Part shown: positions 6,535-19,950 of the stretch, piece by piece
How the letters are laid out: each line of letters begins with the position of its first letter
Numbering within the stretch: position 1 is the stretch's first letter
IMG/VR virus record: IMGVR_UViG_3300047172_000283
Location: 1 to 21,924 of that record
DNA: 21,924 nt
Direction: 5' to 3' (one strand)
From: a virus
Notes under the pieces: model-generated
The model's input: only the letters and a program-made list of their open reading frames with translations
What the model was told of the DNA's origin: nothing
The model's database searches: none
Program-made: the position numbers and the translations under genes

Positions 6535-8097
6535 GTGCCAATTTCTCAACAAGGCAGCGTCAATACGACGTCGCTGATCGTCCCTGATCTGTATGTGCAG
6601 ATCGTCCCACCTCAAAACCTAATTTTGAACGGGGTTCCAACGAATATCGTTGGCGTCGTCGGGACCGCCTCCTGGGGTCCAGTCGATGAACCGGCGATCG
6701 TTGCCACGATGGCCGATTATGCCCAGCAATTCGGTACAATCGTTCCGCGAAAGTATGACATGGGCACCCAGATCGCGACAGCGGTCCAGCAGGGCGCCCA
6801 GAACTTCCGCTGCGTTCGGGTGACCGATGGAACCGACACGGCGGCCTATACCGTGGTTCCCGGTTCCAACGCGAGTTTCACGGCCATTCATACCGGTTCC
6901 CTTGGGAACAACATCACTGTGACGCTCGCGGCAGGCACCCAGCCAAACATATGGACGCTGTCGGTCCTGCTGCCAGGATTCGAGCCGGAAATTTATGACG
7001 GGCTCACCGGCAATGGAGCAGCCTTTTGGGTAGGGTTGGCTTCGGCGGTCAATTCGGGTCTGGGGCCTCAGCGCGGACCGTCACAACTGGTCCTGGTCAG
7101 TGCTGGAGGGACGACGGCCTCGCCGGCACCGTTCTCCCTGAGCTTAGGCGCATCCAGCGCAGGCACGGACGGCGCGACGCAGGTGGGCAGCTTCCAACTG
7201 ATCGGTGCCGATCTATCCAGCCGAACCGGCATGTATGCCCTGCGCGGACAGGGCTGTGGTATCGGACTGCTCGCAGATTGCGATGATGCCACCACCTGGA
7301 CCGCCCAGGCCGGCTTTGGGCTGGACGAAGGTATCTACATAATCCTGACCACGCCGTCGGGGGATACGATCACAAATGCCGTGGCGACGATGGCCGCGGC
7401 CGGATTGAACAGCTACGCCGCGAAGTTGATGTTCGGTGACTGGCTGTGGTGGTCCGATCAGGTGAACAACACGATCCGGCTCGTCTCGCCTCAAGGCTTC
7501 GCGGCTGGCCGTCTGGCTAACCTGTCACCGGAACAGTCCAGTCTCAACAAGCAGATATTCGGGGTGATTGGAAGCCAGCGGACGGGCACGCCGGGCTCGG
7601 GGCAAAACACCGCCTATTCCTCCGCCGACCTGAGTGCCCTGCTGGGTGCCGGCCTGGATGTGATCTGCAATCGCCAGCCCGGCGGATCGTATTGGGGCGT
7701 ACGCGGGGGCAACAACACATCCTCGAACGCCGCCATCGACGGGGACAATTACACCCGACTGACCAATTACATCGCCGAGACCCTGGCAGCAGGGATGGGC
7801 CAATATGTCGGTCAGGTGATCAACAGCAATTTGTTTCAACAGATACGATCAACGCAACTGTCGTTCTTGAACAACATGTACGGCCAAGGCCTGCTCGGTA
7901 GCACCGACGGCTCCCTGCCGTTCAGCGTGATCTGCGATTCGAGTAACAACCCCTCTTCCCGAACCGGTCTGGGATACGTCCAGTCCGACTCGCAGATCCA
8001 ATATCAGGCGATCAACGAGCGATTCATCGTCAATGTGGAGGGGGGGCAGACGGTTCAAGTGTCGCGGCAGACGCTGCCTACGGGTCAGGTTAACTAG
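6535..8097 (+). CDS. Contractile tail sheath protein
   Basis: The sheath surrounds the tail tube and contracts to drive it through the cell envelope. The 520-residue product has the family pattern: a short N-terminal linker, then GVPTNIVGVVGTASWGPVDEP (residues about 33-53) and IATAVQQGAQNFRCVRVTDG (about 81-100), a protruding beta domain (about 105-230), and a C-terminal conserved part that ends in strands near QIQYQAINERFIVNVEGGQ, expected to interlock with neighbouring subunits. The start is GTG at 6535, five bases after the previous stop; no in-frame ATG lies nearby. The tube gene follows after 11 bases. Presence of this gene makes the phage a myovirus. The identity is firm. Confidence 0.93.
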   Translation: MPISQQGSVNTTSLIVPDLYVQIVPPQNLILNGVPTNIVGVVGTASWGPVDEPAIVATMADYAQQFGTIVPRKYDMGTQIATAVQQGAQNFRCVRVTDGTDTAAYTVVPGSNASFTAIHTGSLGNNITVTLAAGTQPNIWTLSVLLPGFEPEIYDGLTGNGAAFWVGLASAVNSGLGPQRGPSQLVLVSAGGTTASPAPFSLSLGASSAGTDGATQVGSFQLIGADLSSRTGMYALRGQGCGIGLLADCDDATTWTAQAGFGLDEGIYIILTTPSGDTITNAVATMAAAGLNSYAAKLMFGDWLWWSDQVNNTIRLVSPQGFAAGRLANLSPEQSSLNKQIFGVIGSQRTGTPGSGQNTAYSSADLSALLGAGLDVICNRQPGGSYWGVRGGNNTSSNAAIDGDNYTRLTNYIAETLAAGMGQYVGQVINSNLFQQIRSTQLSFLNNMYGQGLLGSTDGSLPFSVICDSSNNPSSRTGLGYVQSDSQIQYQAINERFIVNVEGGQTVQVSRQTLPTGQVN

Positions 8098-8108
8098 GAG
8101 ATCATGAA

Positions 8109-8537
8109 GTGGCACTGACAGCATTCTCGATCGGCCGGGACACCCAGCTTGTGGTGATGGGTCCCAACGGGCGGGTAGATATAAGCCATGTCACCGGTTT
8201 CGAAAGCCGGCAGATCACAAGCCCGGTTCGGGTCAGCCGGCTTGACGGAACACAGCTTGGTGCTGAATTGCCGAAGGGGTGGGAAGGTAGCTTCGAGGTG
8301 GAAAGGGGGACGTCCGCGCTCGACGACTTCATTTCCACTTTGGAGCAGAATTTCTATAATGGCGGCAGCACTCAGCCTGGCACGATGTATCAATACATCA
8401 CGGAGACCGACAGCTCCGTTTCGACATATCAGTTCGATGGCGTGGTCTTCAAGCTGACCAGCGCGGGTGCCTGGAAGGGCGATGCCAGCGTGAAGCAGAA
8501 ACTTGAGTTCTATGCGACCCGTAAACGGCGCATCTGA
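8109..8537 (+). CDS. Tail tube protein
   Basis: The tube protein stacks in hexameric rings inside the sheath and forms the DNA conduit. At 142 residues, predicted to be mainly beta, directly after the sheath gene and before the chaperone gene, it fits the small tube proteins of Mu/P2-like contractile tails. Visible features include a beta-rich N-terminal half (TAFSIGRDTQLVVMGPNGRV), a LPKGWEGSFEVERG turn near the middle, and a C-terminal strand KQKLEFYATRKRR. The start is GTG at 8109. The strong site TAGGAG (8095-8100) lies eight bases upstream, while the nearer ATG at 8104 opens a frame of only four codons. The TGA stop overlaps the next ATG by one base. Confidence 0.85.
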   Translation: MALTAFSIGRDTQLVVMGPNGRVDISHVTGFESRQITSPVRVSRLDGTQLGAELPKGWEGSFEVERGTSALDDFISTLEQNFYNGGSTQPGTMYQYITETDSSVSTYQFDGVVFKLTSAGAWKGDASVKQKLEFYATRKRRI

Positions 8538-8896
8538 TGACCCCGACACAAGTCATCGCCGGAGTGGCGTCCCAGACCTTCGCCGCGACTGACCGCAATG
8601 GCCGCCGGCTGGTGCTACGACGGCTGACGGCGCTGGACACACTCCGGCTGTTCAAGGCAGCCGGTCCCGTGCTGGCTCAGAACGAGCCGTGGTTGTCGAT
8701 GGCGGGCCTGGCATTTTCGGTTCTGGAAATCGATGGCGTCCCGGTACCGGCACCAGCCGCCGAACTACAAATCGAAAGCTTGATCGAGCGATTAGGCGAT
8801 GCCGGTTTGGCTGCCATCGCGCAGACACTGCAAGACGAATCGGACATTCCCGATGCAAAGTTAATCGTGGGAAACTCGCCCGGCACCCCGTCCTGA
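8537..8896 (+). CDS. Tail assembly chaperone, short (zero-frame) form
   Basis: This is the 119-residue product made when ribosomes do not shift frame. It has the character of lambda gpG/P2 gpE-type chaperones that coat the tape-measure protein and recruit tube subunits: a beta N-terminus (ASQTFAATDRNGRRLVLRRL), then helices TALDTLRLFKAAGPVLAQNE and an EIDGVPVPAPAAELQIE segment, followed by a helical C-terminus. The ATG overlaps the stop of the tube gene by one base (TGATG at 8535-8539). The stop is at 8894-8896, just 19 bases past a slippery heptamer. Such chaperones are not part of the finished virion. The short-form role is taken from the family; the sequence shows only the arrangement. Confidence 0.82.
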   Translation: MTPTQVIAGVASQTFAATDRNGRRLVLRRLTALDTLRLFKAAGPVLAQNEPWLSMAGLAFSVLEIDGVPVPAPAAELQIESLIERLGDAGLAAIAQTLQDESDIPDAKLIVGNSPGTPS

Positions 8897-9057
8897 TCGA
8901 CTGCCTGTACCTTATTCGGAACGGGGTGCCATTCGACGTTGCATTCTCACTACCGTCCACCGATCGGGCGGCGTTTGTGATCGCGCTGGGAACTCTTGAA
9001 GGTCATCGTTTCGATTGGCTGGCGTTCGACTGGGCGCAACCGGCGACGAAAGGTTAG
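8537..9057 (+). CDS. Tail assembly chaperone, long form made by programmed -1 frameshift
   Basis: This is a predicted fusion product of about 173 residues. Ribosomes read 113 codons to base 8875, slip back one base on GGGAAAC, and continue from CTC at 8875 to the TAG at 9055-9057, adding about 60 residues (LARHPVLIDCLYLIRNGVPF and onward to WLAFDWAQPATKG). The extension has no plausible start codon of its own close to the junction and shows conserved-looking protein character, with no stop in the -1 frame across the join. By analogy with lambda gpGT and P2 gpE+E', the extension would recruit the tube protein while the common part binds the tape measure. The ratio of the two forms is normally important for tail assembly. 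Confidence 0.82.
8869..8930 (+). promoter_or_regulatory. Programmed -1 ribosomal frameshift signal (slippery site plus stem-loop)
   Basis: The slippery heptamer GGGAAAC lies at 8869-8875 and is read in the zero frame as G-GGA-AAC, the register needed for simultaneous slippage. After a 6-base spacer (8876-8881), GGCACCCCGT (8882-8891) is perfectly complementary to ACGGGGTGCC (8921-8930): a 10-bp, GC-rich stem. Inside it, 8893-8896 can add four pairs with 8916-8919 after one mismatch. The zero-frame stop (8894-8896) falls within the hairpin. All elements of a classical frameshift cassette are seen directly; the frameshift event itself is inferred. Confidence 0.85.
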
Positions 9058-9062
9058 AGCCC

Positions 9063-9914
9063 ATGCTCAAGGTCGATTCGAAGCGGATTTCATGGTTTCT
9101 CGCGCTGCGACGGCTTCTACCTTTTCCACATCCGTCGTTAGCTCCTCGGGCTTGGGCGCGGCCGGCCCCCGGGCCGACGGGTTTGGAATTGGAGACCGCG
9201 GAGGCATACGAGCGGGCGCTTCAGGCCGGGGCTGCCAGCACGACCCGATCAGTGCGACTCCCGGGTCTTACGCTTCCGGGACTCACGCAGGTAATGCCAC
9301 CGGCCGATCGCTGGCACATCAAGGTCCTGCCAGGCCGACCGAACATGGCAAGCTTCAAGGTGCCGCGGAGTGGCCTTGCGCGGAATGTTATTCCCGATTT
9401 GCCTCTGGCGAGGATGCCCGGCCAGGATTTCATGAACGACCTTGGGCATCGGATCCCCGCGGTTTCCTCGATCAGGGAACGCTACCAACCGATCGGTGGT
9501 TCAGGCGGGATGATCGGTGGTAGCGGCAGATTGTCGAATTTCGCACCGGTGGGGAACGGTCCTGCCACGCAACATGCCGGGGACATTGGTCACTATCCAG
9601 GTTCGTCGACTGTCTCCGCCGGAACTGATGGATTTGTTCCGAAACCGGACCGGGTTCCACCTTGGGAGGCGCTGTTGTCCGGTTCAGATATATTCAGCCA
9701 GGACCAGCGTCTAGCCGGGGGCCAAACAAGCGCGACTACGAGCACTCAGTCGCGATCGACTCGAACGGCTGTTGCGACATTGCATCTTGATGGCTCCGCA
9801 CTGGGCCGATGGACCGTGCAGCATCTGGAGCGCGTGTTGGGGAAGCCCGGCAGCGGCATGACAGGTGTCGATCCCCGAGCCTCGACACCGCGCGGCCGGG
9901 TTTCACCCTTTTAG
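9063..9914 (+). CDS. Unusually short protein in the tape-measure position
   Basis: This encodes 283 residues from the ATG at 9063, six bases after the chaperone stop; an in-frame ATG at 9015 would overlap the chaperone extension. It sits between the chaperone pair and the U-like baseplate gene, where tape-measure proteins are always encoded. The sequence is rich in Pro, Gly, Arg and Ser, without membrane segments or long coiled coils. Only its last 50 or so residues (TAVATLHLDGSALGRWTVQH, then a TGVDPR motif) resemble the C-terminal tail I associate with alphaproteobacterial phage tape measures. Tape measures usually exceed 500 residues because their length sets tail length. This could be a true mini tape measure, a gene shortened by internal deletion, or an unrelated tail protein. 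I see no alternative frame giving a longer product. Confidence 0.5.
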   Translation: MLKVDSKRISWFLALRRLLPFPHPSLAPRAWARPAPGPTGLELETAEAYERALQAGAASTTRSVRLPGLTLPGLTQVMPPADRWHIKVLPGRPNMASFKVPRSGLARNVIPDLPLARMPGQDFMNDLGHRIPAVSSIRERYQPIGGSGGMIGGSGRLSNFAPVGNGPATQHAGDIGHYPGSSTVSAGTDGFVPKPDRVPPWEALLSGSDIFSQDQRLAGGQTSATTSTQSRSTRTAVATLHLDGSALGRWTVQHLERVLGKPGSGMTGVDPRASTPRGRVSPF

Positions 9915-9960: not shown

Positions 9961-10695
9961 TTGCGGGACTCGCCAATTCAGATAGGCCCCATCAGCCTTC
10001 AAGGCTTCGAAATACCGCCCTCGATCCGCTTCGGCGGTCGCCAGCGGCTAGCCGTCCACACGTTGGCGGGTGGCCGCCGGGTGGTTGAGCGCCTGGGGCC
10101 CGACGACGGCGAAGTCGCGTTTCGAGGCACTTTCTCAGGCCCGGATGCGGAAGCGCGGGTTCGGGCATTCGATACCCTGCGTACTTCAGGCGACGTCGTT
10201 TGGTTGACCTGGGAGACTTTCCGACGCCAAGTGGTCGTGAAAAGTTTCGTCGCGGATTACGAGAGTCCTTGGTGGATTCGATACGATGCGCGCTGCGTCG
10301 TTGTGCATCAATCCGGTGTTTCAAGCGCCCTGTTATCGACGATGTCTGCTTTGGTAACATCGGACCTCGGCAACGCCTTGTCCGCTGCGACGGAATCGGG
10401 ACTTTCCCTAATACCGCTACAAAGCGCGCTCGCCCTTCCGAATGCCCTCACGACGGGCACCTCGGATCAGGTCGAAGCCATGGCCGCGGTTGGCACTACG
10501 CTGGACTGCATCAACAGTCAGATCGCTGCGCAATCAGCACAACTTACAAGGCCAACGGCAGCCGACCTGGACCCGGGTGCATTCATCCAGACGGTGACGA
10601 CAATAACGAGTAGTGCGGGACTGCTGGCCTCGGCGGTCAACGCAGGGTCCTATGTTGGACGTATCGGAATGACTTTGACCCGGTCGGGAACCTGA
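9961..10695 (+). CDS. Baseplate/tail-tip protein, P2 GpU-like
   Basis: This encodes 244 residues. The first 120 or so (IRFGGRQRLAVHTLAGGRRV, then VERLGPDDGEVAFRGTFSG, a helix ARVRAFDTLRTSG, strands VVWLTWETFRRQVVVKSFVA) match the pattern of small tail proteins of the GpU type: gly-rich strands, one helix and a final strand pair. The C-terminal half is Ala/Ser/Thr-rich and probably helical. Gene order supports this: chaperone, tape-measure position, this gene, LysM-like X, hub D is the P2 order E-T-U-X-D. It would link tube and baseplate hub. The start is TTG, behind GGAGG. The homology to P2 U itself is inferred from position and pattern; a Mu N/DNA-circularisation-type assignment is less likely given its size. 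Confidence 0.6.
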   Translation: MRDSPIQIGPISLQGFEIPPSIRFGGRQRLAVHTLAGGRRVVERLGPDDGEVAFRGTFSGPDAEARVRAFDTLRTSGDVVWLTWETFRRQVVVKSFVADYESPWWIRYDARCVVVHQSGVSSALLSTMSALVTSDLGNALSAATESGLSLIPLQSALALPNALTTGTSDQVEAMAAVGTTLDCINSQIAAQSAQLTRPTAADLDPGAFIQTVTTITSSAGLLASAVNAGSYVGRIGMTLTRSGT

Positions 10696-10696
10696 G

Positions 10697-10882
10697 ATGC
10701 AGACCATCATCATTATCGGCGGAAATCTGTTCGAGATCGCCGCGACACGGCTAGGAAGTGCCCTGCAATGGATCAACATAGCACGAGCGAATAAACTCAC
10801 CGACCCGATGCTGACGGGGCAAAATGAGATCACGATTCCTCCGTTCTCCCAGACATTTTCCGACGGCATTGGACCGCAATAG
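10697..10882 (+). CDS. LysM-like tail protein X
   Basis: This encodes 61 residues with the signature of the phage tail protein X family: GGNLFEIAATRLGSALQWIN near the N-terminus, then IARANKLTDPML and an ITIPPF end. This is a LysM-type fold of two short helices packed on two strands. In P2-like tails the X protein is a small baseplate component next to the hub. It starts one base after the U-like stop and ends immediately before the hub gene's ATG, so the U-X-D trio is almost certainly translated together. The length is close to the usual 65-70 residues. Confidence 0.85.
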   Translation: MQTIIIIGGNLFEIAATRLGSALQWINIARANKLTDPMLTGQNEITIPPFSQTFSDGIGPQ

Positions 10883-16566: not shown

Positions 16567-19500
16567 ATGCCCACAATTGATGAGCTTGCCCCGGCGACTT
16601 CGGCATCTGACATCGACGAGTTCGTCGTCAGCCAGTCGGGCATTGCTCGTAAGATAACACGTGCCCAGATATTGAATGGTGTCCAAACGCAGCTGATGCT
16701 GCCCGCGGGGTCGCTATTGGGCGGTGTCGGTTCCGGAATGGTCACCCCACAGGTCGTTACGGTCGGGCAGAACCTGAGCTTCAACGGGTCCACATTGACG
16801 GCGACGGCGGCTCCGTTCGTCGTTGCGGCCCTTCCGTCCGGAACGGTGCCAGCGACCGGCGATCTCCTGTCCTTGTCGCAAGGCGGCCGTGACGTGTCTG
16901 TGACCTATGGCCAACTTCTAAGCGGCCTTTCGGGCGTTGCGAATATCAACCTCTCACAGGCTCTTGTCACACCAGACGGCGCGGCAGCCGGACAGACGCT
17001 GGGCCAACTGACCGCCAACATGCTGCCCTCATCCGGTGGAACCGTAACCGGAACCCTAACGCTCGCCGAATCCCCCATCGCTTCCGGACATGCGGCGAAC
17101 AAGGCCTATGTGGATCAGCAGGTCGTCGCCACTTTGCCGCTAAACGGCGGCTCGATGTCGGGGATACTGACGCTCTCAGGAACGCCGCAGCATCCGCTCG
17201 ATTCCGCCACAAAGGCATACGTGGATTCAATCGCTGCGAGTATGCTGCCGATCGGTGGTGGCTCCGTTTCCGGTGCTCTGCTTTTGGGAGCCGACCCAAC
17301 TGTTTCGCTACAGGCGTCCACGAAACACTATGCCGATCTGAAGTTGTCGCGGACAGGCGATACGCTGTCGGGCGTATTGACACTTGCCGCGGACCCGGTG
17401 TCCGCTCTGCAGGCAGCCACAAAAAGCTATGTCGATACAGAGGTATCCACTTCTCTACCGCAATCCGGCGGGACGTTGACAGGCGGCTTGTTTCTGGCAG
17501 CAGATCCCATCAGCAGCGCACAGGCCGCCACCAAGCAATATGTCGATCAGCGCGTGCTGCGAACAGGCGATACGCTGACGGGCGCCTTGATCCTCGCAGG
17601 CGATCCATTGGTGGCGTCGCAAGCGGCCACGAAGAACTACGTGGATACGCAAGCTGCCGGCTCGCTCCCACGATCGGGGGCCTCGATGACCGGCGCTTTG
17701 CTGCTGGCTTCCGACCCATCGGCGCCTCTACAGGCCAGTACGAAGCAGTACGTCGATCTACACGTCATGCGCAATGGCGACACGCTGACCGGCGCTCTGT
17801 ACTTGGCGTCGAACCCGACGGCCGCGACGCAGGCAGCCACCAAGCAATATGTAGACAATCAGGTCGCGACGGGCATAACCGCTGGGGGCGGTACCTTCAC
17901 CGGACCGGTGGTACTGGCAGCGGACCCGACGGTGCCAACCCAGGCAGCCACGAAGCACTATGCCGACGCTAGGGTGCTGCGGACGGGCGATACCCTCAGT
18001 GGTGCCCTTATCCTGGCGGCCGATCCGGTGGCCGCCGCTCAAGCCGCAACGAAGAACTACGTGGATACGCAGGTACTGGCGTTGTTGCCGCGATCCGGCG
18101 GCAGTCTTGCCGGGTCTCTTACGCTGAACGCAGATCCAACGAGTTCCGGCCAAGCCGCGACAAAGCACTATGTCGATACGCAGGTTGGCACGGCGCTGCC
18201 TTTGTCGGGTGGGTCCCTGGCGGGATCGCTATCGTTGGCCGCGGGACCAACGGCACCGCTGCACAGCGCCACCAAACAGTATGTTGATGGCCAGGTCGCG
18301 ACGTCCTTGTCCTGTTCGGGCGGCACGGTGACCGGGACATTAACGCTCGCGGGCCTACCAACGATGCCCTTGCAGGCAGCCACAAAGTCATACGTCGATG
18401 CGAACCCCAATTCCGCGGGCGTCATCAACGTGATGCTGCCACCCTACGGTGCCAAGATGGACGGGGTGACGGACGACACCGCCGCATTCAAAGCGGCCTA
18501 CCTTGCAGCTGCTAACGGTGCCACGATCTATGTGCCAAATGGCACGACAGTCATTCAGCAGCCAGGGTCCTGGGGGATATCTCTCACGAAACGGGTGAAG
18601 TGGCAGGTTGACGGAACCGTTCTGGCAGATGGGACACCGCTTGGCGCATCGATCCCGAGCGGCGGGGCGCCGGCGGCTGTTACATTGCCCGGAATGGTCA
18701 CAGGCAGCACTCAGACCGGTCTGACGACGTCGCAAGCGGGATCGCAAATCACCGACTTCGCGGTCAATCAATCGTCTTATATCGTTAGTCATAACGGTGG
18801 GACAAACGGCACCGTCATCGCCAACGTCCGGGCCGACACCATCATTTACGGCAGCCCCGGGAATTATGTTTGGGGCGGACTAGACCGCCTTGTCTGGACG
18901 GGAACCCAGACCCCCACGGCGGCGACACCTGCTCAACATGTCGGCCGCTACATTCAGACCCTTCGGCAATCGGCGTCGACCGGATCCAGCGGTCAGTTTC
19001 TGCCGCAACCGCAACTTTGGGCCGCATGCATCGAATATCGGGACACGACAGGCGAACCGTCCAGTGTGACGAATGCGTCACTCACGACCGAAATGGATTG
19101 GTTCGGGAATGGTCTGGACGATGCTAACTGCAGAACCATCCAGAGCCTGGTGATCGGCCAGAATAACTTGTCGGGCGCCCCTGTCGAGGTATCGACAGTC
19201 ATCGGGGTTTATCTGGCCGCCGGGTCGTCCGGAAGCGTCAAAACGGTATTAGGCATCGGCACTCCGTTTTCGAATGCCGTACTCGATTCGACTTACGGAC
19301 TTTCGATTAACAACGCGCCGGTTATTAAAATGTCGGCTGGCCAGGCAATCGCCTTCGAGAGCAGCAACAGCAATCGATTACTCTACGACTCTACGACCAA
19401 TACACTCCGTTGGAATCAGGGATCGATTTCCTATGTCGTTGGCAAGGGCATCACGGTTGGATGGGCGGACATCTATTCCGGTTCCGCGACGCTGCCGAAC

Positions 19501-19950
19501 TTTAGCTCGGGAAGCATCAATTTCCTGACGGGTAATTCTCCCTATTCCATCACGCTGCCACCGGCAAATACGGTCGCGGCAGGGACAGGCTTTACCTTCA
19601 CGGTCTCAGGGTCCGGGCCTGTCAGCATATTGCCGAGTGGGGCCGACGGGATCGAGTCCGGCCCGATCGTTTTGCATACGAATGATCGATATCATATCAT
19701 CTCCGATGGAGGGTCATTCTGGCACGAAGTGTTTTGGACGAATGGCGTTTCGCCACGCTTCCTTGGGCCGATGGTTCTGGCGTCCTATTCCGTTGCGAAC
19801 CTGCCCTCAGGCGTGACGGCTGGGGCCAAGGCTTTCGCAACGAATGGCCGGAAGCCGGGTGAGGGCGCCGGGTCCGGTACCGGCGTCGAGGTCTTCTTCG
19901 ATGGCCAGCACTGGATCTCGTCATGCGGTGGAACCGCGGCCGCCTCCTAA
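16567..19950 (+). CDS. Long tail fiber protein with 13 tandem fiber repeats
   Basis: This encodes 1127 residues. Residues 1 to about 120 form an N-terminal domain with two copies of a D-hydrophobic-SQ-x-G motif (D17, D99) shared with the next fiber, presumably for attachment to the tail. Residues about 153-611 hold 13 repeats built around TK-x-Y-V/A-D and LPxSGGTLTG or RTGDTLTG, the phage tail fiber repeat type (Phage_fiber_2-like). Residues about 619-665 carry a pectate-lyase-3-like opening (LPPYGAKMDGVTDDTAAF), but I see no extended beta-helix or catalytic residues after it. The remaining region is Ser/Thr/Gly-rich and beta-like. The end (from about 1079, LPSGVTAGAKAFATNGRKPG and VEVFFDGQHWIS) is a C-terminal motif I recognise from phage tail proteins. 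It would trimerise and recognise the host surface. No intramolecular chaperone is recognised. Confidence 0.88.
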   Translation: MPTIDELAPATSASDIDEFVVSQSGIARKITRAQILNGVQTQLMLPAGSLLGGVGSGMVTPQVVTVGQNLSFNGSTLTATAAPFVVAALPSGTVPATGDLLSLSQGGRDVSVTYGQLLSGLSGVANINLSQALVTPDGAAAGQTLGQLTANMLPSSGGTVTGTLTLAESPIASGHAANKAYVDQQVVATLPLNGGSMSGILTLSGTPQHPLDSATKAYVDSIAASMLPIGGGSVSGALLLGADPTVSLQASTKHYADLKLSRTGDTLSGVLTLAADPVSALQAATKSYVDTEVSTSLPQSGGTLTGGLFLAADPISSAQAATKQYVDQRVLRTGDTLTGALILAGDPLVASQAATKNYVDTQAAGSLPRSGASMTGALLLASDPSAPLQASTKQYVDLHVMRNGDTLTGALYLASNPTAATQAATKQYVDNQVATGITAGGGTFTGPVVLAADPTVPTQAATKHYADARVLRTGDTLSGALILAADPVAAAQAATKNYVDTQVLALLPRSGGSLAGSLTLNADPTSSGQAATKHYVDTQVGTALPLSGGSLAGSLSLAAGPTAPLHSATKQYVDGQVATSLSCSGGTVTGTLTLAGLPTMPLQAATKSYVDANPNSAGVINVMLPPYGAKMDGVTDDTAAFKAAYLAAANGATIYVPNGTTVIQQPGSWGISLTKRVKWQVDGTVLADGTPLGASIPSGGAPAAVTLPGMVTGSTQTGLTTSQAGSQITDFAVNQSSYIVSHNGGTNGTVIANVRADTIIYGSPGNYVWGGLDRLVWTGTQTPTAATPAQHVGRYIQTLRQSASTGSSGQFLPQPQLWAACIEYRDTTGEPSSVTNASLTTEMDWFGNGLDDANCRTIQSLVIGQNNLSGAPVEVSTVIGVYLAAGSSGSVKTVLGIGTPFSNAVLDSTYGLSINNAPVIKMSAGQAIAFESSNSNRLLYDSTTNTLRWNQGSISYVVGKGITVGWADIYSGSATLPNFSSGSINFLTGNSPYSITLPPANTVAAGTGFTFTVSGSGPVSILPSGADGIESGPIVLHTNDRYHIISDGGSFWHEVFWTNGVSPRFLGPMVLASYSVANLPSGVTAGAKAFATNGRKPGEGAGSGTGVEVFFDGQHWISSCGGTAAAS
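17023..18399 (+). repeat. Array of 13 fiber repeats with alternating 37/33-residue period
   Basis: The lysine codon before each Y-V/A-D motif lies at 17101, 17212, 17323, 17422, 17533, 17632, 17743, 17842, 17953, 18052, 18163, 18274 and 18385. Spacings are therefore 111, 111, 99, 111, 99, 111, 99, 111, 99, 111, 111 and 111 bases. The 99-base steps are exactly those with a charged R-T/N-GDTL hinge; the 111-base steps have a longer LPxSGG-type hinge. The middle thus forms 210-base (70-residue) super-repeats, a signature of duplication of two-unit blocks. Confidence 0.9.

Follow-up and report, generated by a model that had tools for sequence, protein, structure and literature searches.

Tail assembly chaperones of two sizes are known from phage lambda, in which the gene lies between those of the tail tube and the tape measure and a heptamer close to the end of the first ORF allows -1 slippage, so that a long form (gpGT) arises next to gpG. 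The lambda heptamer is AAG-ended (G_GGA_AAG). A heptamer followed by a structure a few nucleotides downstream is also found in other genes, namely in IS3-family elements and E. coli dnaX, where heptamers are mostly of the AAG type and an upstream Shine-Dalgarno sequence is sometimes added. Phage P2 (Peduovirinae), which has a contractile tail, likewise forms two chaperone products, E and E+E', by -1 frameshift. Its site is T_TTT_TTG with no predicted hairpin downstream, and downstream structures were reported at phage sites in rare cases only (PMC3091744). Finally, the heptamer G_GGA_AAC was described in the same functional gene pair (G-T) of haloarchaeal virus HCTV-1, for which the relevant part of PMC5009743 describes no stimulator.

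The locus considered here is located in a window (the whole stretch of viral DNA that was analysed) of 21,924 nucleotides, corresponding to positions 1 to 21,924 of IMG/VR record IMGVR_UViG_3300047172_000283; all features given below are on its + strand. The locus displayed the organization of lambda G/GT: an X_XXY_YYZ heptamer in -1 register at the end of a first ORF, an overlapping open -1 ORF, and a position between tube and tape measure genes, the tape measure of the window itself being a candidate only. Upstream are a tail sheath gene (6535..8097; phrog_23, E 1e-46) and a probable tail tube gene (8109..8537), which adjoins the locus and was assigned from its position after the sheath, its match phrog_12993 having no named function. 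Baseplate genes are found downstream. The protein of 119 aa encoded by 8537..8896 matched a single PHROGs family, phrog_20383, also without named function. Its AlphaFold2 model (pLDDT 84.5) had as best PDB match in Foldseek the tail assembly chaperone of siphovirus HK97 (2ob9), with modest similarity (prob 0.89, E 0.055, TM 0.43-0.47, 17% identity), and annotated tail assembly chaperones were among its top viral structure matches. Gene position and fold make it likely that this gene encodes a gpG-like tail assembly chaperone. Pfam gave no match for either the chaperone or its extension, a search of the PDB by sequence returned nothing significant, tblastn of the chaperone alone against phages found no match, and a nucleotide search of phage records yielded only a chance match of 31 bp.

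The ORF of 284 aa at 9063..9914 occupies the tape-measure position. It had no family match in PHROGs or Pfam, and a tape measure was not recognised in the window by these libraries. An ORF of ~283-313 aa occupies this position in most relatives checked (window 9063-9914; L053-L065) and displays a conserved C-terminus of 44 aa and a variable middle. As a rule of thumb, a tape measure accounts for 0.15 nm of tail length per residue; on this basis, were it the tape measure, this ORF would specify a very short tail. The region 9961-10882 was also considered as a second split gene and was rejected: most relatives carry its 61-aa gene as an ORF of its own, which makes the arrangement ordinary. A probable tail fibre of 1127 aa was observed at 16567-19950; its first half consists of many tandem copies of ~45-residue units (..QAATKNYVDTQ..).

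The chaperone ORF extends from ATG 8537 to TGA 8894-8896, so that 8869 is the third position of a codon and GGGAAAC (8869..8875) stands in the register G_GGA_AAC. A spacer of 6 nt (8876..8881) separates the heptamer from a hairpin that contains the zero-frame stop (8894..8896). The -1 frame remains open as far as 9057 and encodes an extension of 60 aa (8875..9057; LARHPVLIDCLYLIRNGVPFDVAF..., stop TAG 9055-9057). The frameshifted product would be joined after Asn113, the residue of AAC, continue with LARHPV and reach 113 + 60 = 173 aa. The extension was modelled as three helices (pLDDT 87) with no fold relative in the PDB. Heptamer and register, spacer, position of the stop within the stem-loop, open -1 frame and junction had all been described in an earlier note made from the sequence alone, and all of its coordinates proved right.

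We consider it very probable that this locus is a hairpin-assisted -1 ribosomal frameshift cassette of the lambda G/GT type that yields a longer chaperone. This had been the proposal of the earlier note, and it is supported by the conserved heptamer, stem and -1 frame, together with gene position and fold. At the level of sequence, comparison with relatives showed the signal, selection on the signal and the need for frameshifting, whereas how efficiently and at which step slippage occurs, and what the two products do, we infer by analogy. Most ribosomes would read G_GGA_AAC and terminate at TGA 8894, and their product would be the 119-aa chaperone. The hairpin of 9-10 bp, 6 nt past the heptamer, would hinder ribosomes holding tRNA-Gly and tRNA-Asn on GGA AAC, and a minority would slip to GGG AAA and go on in the -1 frame for another 60 residues past Asn113. 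As in lambda gpG/gpGT, the short form would coat the tape measure protein, and tail tube subunits would be recruited by the long form through its extension.

Relatives were collected from viral contigs, Acetobacterales genomes and a cultured Komagataeibacter phage, amounting to 371 loci with 288 distinct 80-nt sites. These sites comprised 172 GGGAAAC, 95 AAAAAAC, 20 AAAAAAG/A/T and one GGGAAAT; GGGAAAC or AAAAAAC was thus present in about 93% of them, and the zero-frame stop was nearly always at most 28 nt away. Searching viral contigs with the chaperone yielded 52 loci, 50 of which displayed an in-register GGGAAAC, one contig ending just past the heptamer. With the extension as query, 18 good loci were found in bacterial genomes, and GGGAAAC was present in 18/18. 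Almost all of these loci belonged to Acetobacteraceae, and Rhodopila globiformis DSM 161 and Acidocella facilis ATCC 35904 were among the genomes. A second viral scan with the extension, partly overlapping the first, retained 80 loci (78 GGGAAAC, 2 AAAAAAC). Of 299 genomes sampled within the order to which R. globiformis belongs, 120 encoded the extension.

Among 111 distinct close relatives, 109 displayed GGGAAAC and the other two AAAAAAC. The first base of the heptamer, a third position in the zero frame, was always G in the GGGAAAC class after nine different dinucleotides (GC, GT, CA, CT, TT, CC, TC, AT and AC), and A in the AAAAAAC class. Such a fixed base is not required by the zero-frame protein and indicates selection on the slippery heptamer itself. 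The zero-frame stop was located at heptamer +7 or +25 in 111/111 close relatives and in all but five of the 273 sites of the GGGAAAC and AAAAAAC classes (four at +10, one at +46). The extension was conserved as protein, with third-position variation following the -1 frame. Conservation of the heptamer and of the -1 frame, which had been suggested as checks, was thus observed among the collected relatives. In this family of phages of acetic-acid-type bacteria, the cassette was, in these comparisons, strictly maintained, and for the window phage itself we infer the host from these relatives.

The stem GGCACCCCGT/ACGGGGTGCC begins 6 bases past the heptamer and is perfect in the window (8882-8891/8921-8930). 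The hairpin alone (8880-8932) had a folding energy of -25.7 kcal/mol (z = -5.0), with 0/200 shuffles as stable; the contrast was smaller over a longer stretch (z = -2.3). The 10-bp stem of the earlier note stood within the window, but its innermost pair, 8891/8921, was formed in just 37-46% of relatives. The conserved stem is therefore restricted to the outer 9 bp, with arms GGCACCCCG (8882..8890) and CGGGGTGCC (8922..8930). Four further inner pairs, proposed as a possible extension of the stem, were only partially conserved (90, 99, 54 and 43%). The spacer had the same length across the aligned relatives, the alignment being ungapped.

Constraint on the stem was evaluated on a tree of the 111 close relatives built without the hairpin columns, by counting parsimony changes at third positions of the -1 frame. 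Fourfold-degenerate sites in the core of the stem (CGG 8883, GGG 8925 and GTG 8928) underwent 0, 1 and 0 changes, compared to 27-49 in most fourfold-degenerate codons outside the hairpin. Position 8889, at the tip, varied freely (30 changes) and yet was paired in 88%. In 83 diverse sequences, the nine pairs were formed in 90.1% of cells versus 39-49% when the partner was slid by one to three columns, and two-sided changes amounted to 30 versus 6.7 +/- 2.3 in shuffles that ignore relatedness, a weakness from which the slid-partner control and the synonymous-site test are free. The compensatory changes that the earlier note had proposed to look for were encountered in diverged relatives: GGAACCCCG/CGGGGTTCC in L198, L227 and L230, GGGACGCC/GGGGTCCC with one mismatch in L229, and GGCACTCC/GGAGTGCC in L382 and L438. 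A stable stem 5-9 nt past the heptamer and with compensatory changes, as expected of a hairpin-stimulated -1 cassette, was accordingly found. The covariation and the silent sites show constraint on the stem at the RNA level; its presumed role would be to stimulate slippage.

Several relatives displayed other architectures, which constitute natural controls. In L051 (2783-2995), L052 (3318-3521), L155 and the host locus L401, the extension had an ATG of its own and formed an ORF distinct from the chaperone, through an ATGA overlap in L052 and L155 and a junction TAGGCTATG in L051. All four split-gene loci lacked the heptamer, and L051, L052 and L401 also lacked the stem. L155 and its near-identical host copy L393 retained a shortened stem, ACCCCGT/ACGGGGT, without heptamer, which is suggestive of descent from a frameshifting ancestor. 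Distant relatives with AAAAAAG had no hairpin, with a mean folding z of -0.5 (13 sites) versus -3.9 for 140 GGGAAAC sites with the stem motif. The cultured Komagataeibacter phage phiKX1 (LC644975.1; L072 2657-3198) displayed AAAAAAC (L072 2995-3001) directly followed by TGA, the same nine stem pairs and, two genes past the chaperone, a recognised tape measure (phrog_28). Its record holds the two halves as separate 'hypothetical proteins', which bears out the earlier expectation that gene callers would miss the extension; this pair is most likely one frameshifted chaperone gene.

Three further junctions were observed. L157, L189 and L254 shared GCGGGGGAATAGC upstream of the extension in place of an XXXYYYZ heptamer, with the extension in the -1 frame, and this junction (GCG GGG GAA TAG) is possibly another slip site. 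The AT-rich loci L449, L452, L455 and L456 displayed AAAAAAC/T and a -1 extension with no stable downstream hairpin (-1 to -8 kcal/mol). In L380, a host genome, the extension was conserved, and neither slippery heptamer nor start codon was recognised near the junction.

Conservation of the stem might instead reflect mRNA stability, the coding of the HP and GVP motifs or some other need, with the heptamer slipping unaided. The residues that the stem encodes (RHP, GVP) are indeed conserved, and both the AAAAAAG relatives without stem and L155/L393, with a shortened stem and no heptamer, would fit such a dissociation. However, the synonymous sites of the stem are frozen, its changes are compensated, its distance to the heptamer is fixed at 6 nt, and the split-gene L051 and L052 keep VP in the motif while losing the stem codons; we regard this explanation as improbable. 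A stimulator other than a simple hairpin was also considered. The loop TCGA (8897-8900) is complementary to TCGA at 8933-8936 in the window, and a pseudoknot had been deemed conceivable on that ground, but it received no support: 50.9% of cells paired in the 83 sequences, against 49.8% in shuffles and 58.7% after a slide of one column, and no fourfold-degenerate site from 8931 to 9033 was unusually constrained. The conserved loop-to-downstream pairing expected of a pseudoknot-stimulated cassette was thus not found, and a pseudoknot acting in place of the hairpin is very improbable. Shine-Dalgarno-like sequences upstream of the heptamer, as in some IS3 and dnaX cassettes, were not enriched (11% versus 16% in shuffles).

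Two further explanations would dispense with ribosomal slippage altogether. The extension could be a gene in its own right, translated from a start within the chaperone gene through internal initiation or termination-reinitiation, as it is in the distant relatives L051, L052 and L155; in the window itself, a GTG in frame with the extension lies 180 nt upstream of the heptamer. On the other hand, in 94 of the 111 close relatives the part of the -1 frame that separates its preceding stop from the heptamer contains neither ATG nor GTG nor TTG, which leaves frameshifting. Protein-level conservation nevertheless covers codons 1-17 of the extension, the in-frame GTG within the stem (8926) being too far downstream to account for it, and the invariant heptamer would be left unexplained, so that a separate start is very unlikely for the window. 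RNA polymerase slippage on the heptamer, giving -1-frame mRNAs, is a known bacterial alternative according to PMC5009743, and the six-A run of AAAAAAC in many relatives would suit it. The longest homopolymer in GGGAAAC is three, however, the codon register is strictly kept, and a stem at constant spacing reveals an RNA-level constraint that polymerase slippage does not need; this alternative is hardly credible. Hairpin-assisted ribosomal frameshifting consequently remains our preferred reading.

The type of heptamer may be related to host tRNAs. In E. coli, AAC-ended heptamers are less shift-prone than AAG-ended ones, according to PMC5009743 and, as regards how AAG-ended heptamers rank, PMC4066793. 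The two cultured host genomes that were checked, R. globiformis and A. facilis, both harbored tRNA-Lys(UUU) and tRNA-Lys(CUU), so AAG-ended heptamers should be less slippery there. One speculative and rather doubtful proposal is that the cassette is adapted to this tRNA set, the weaker slipperiness of an AAC-ended heptamer being offset by an obligatory hairpin. If true, the family would form a natural series trading slippery site against stimulator, in which AAAAAAG relatives do without hairpin and others drop slippage by gene splitting. Since different slippery sites, forms with or without hairpin and split-gene forms all occur in the family, it could be used to study how modes of protein-ratio control are swapped. 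These results also suggest a likely function for the unnamed family phrog_20383, whose phages probably possess a second chaperone product, divided or overlooked by ordinary annotation.

Compared with known systems, the locus shares with lambda gpG/gpGT the position of the gene, the probable kind of chaperone and the way in which the long form would be made, and differs from it by its AAC-ended heptamer, its conserved and covarying hairpin and the contractile tail of the virus. The contractile tail and the two chaperone products are common to P2, with sizes of 91/142 aa for E/E+E' and 119/173 aa here; membership of the P2 family was rejected, as the heptamer differs and the profile libraries (PHROGs, Pfam) returned no P2-family match. 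HCTV-1 has the same heptamer in an archaeal siphovirus, and IS3-family elements and dnaX have the same succession of heptamer and structure. The arrangement and its logic are hence already known from lambda gpG/gpGT and P2 E/E+E'. Since P2-type sites have no predicted hairpin and downstream structures at phage sites are described as rare, the present case is, as judged from its sequence comparisons, an unusually well-documented one and among the better-supported hairpin-assisted frameshifts of tail chaperones.
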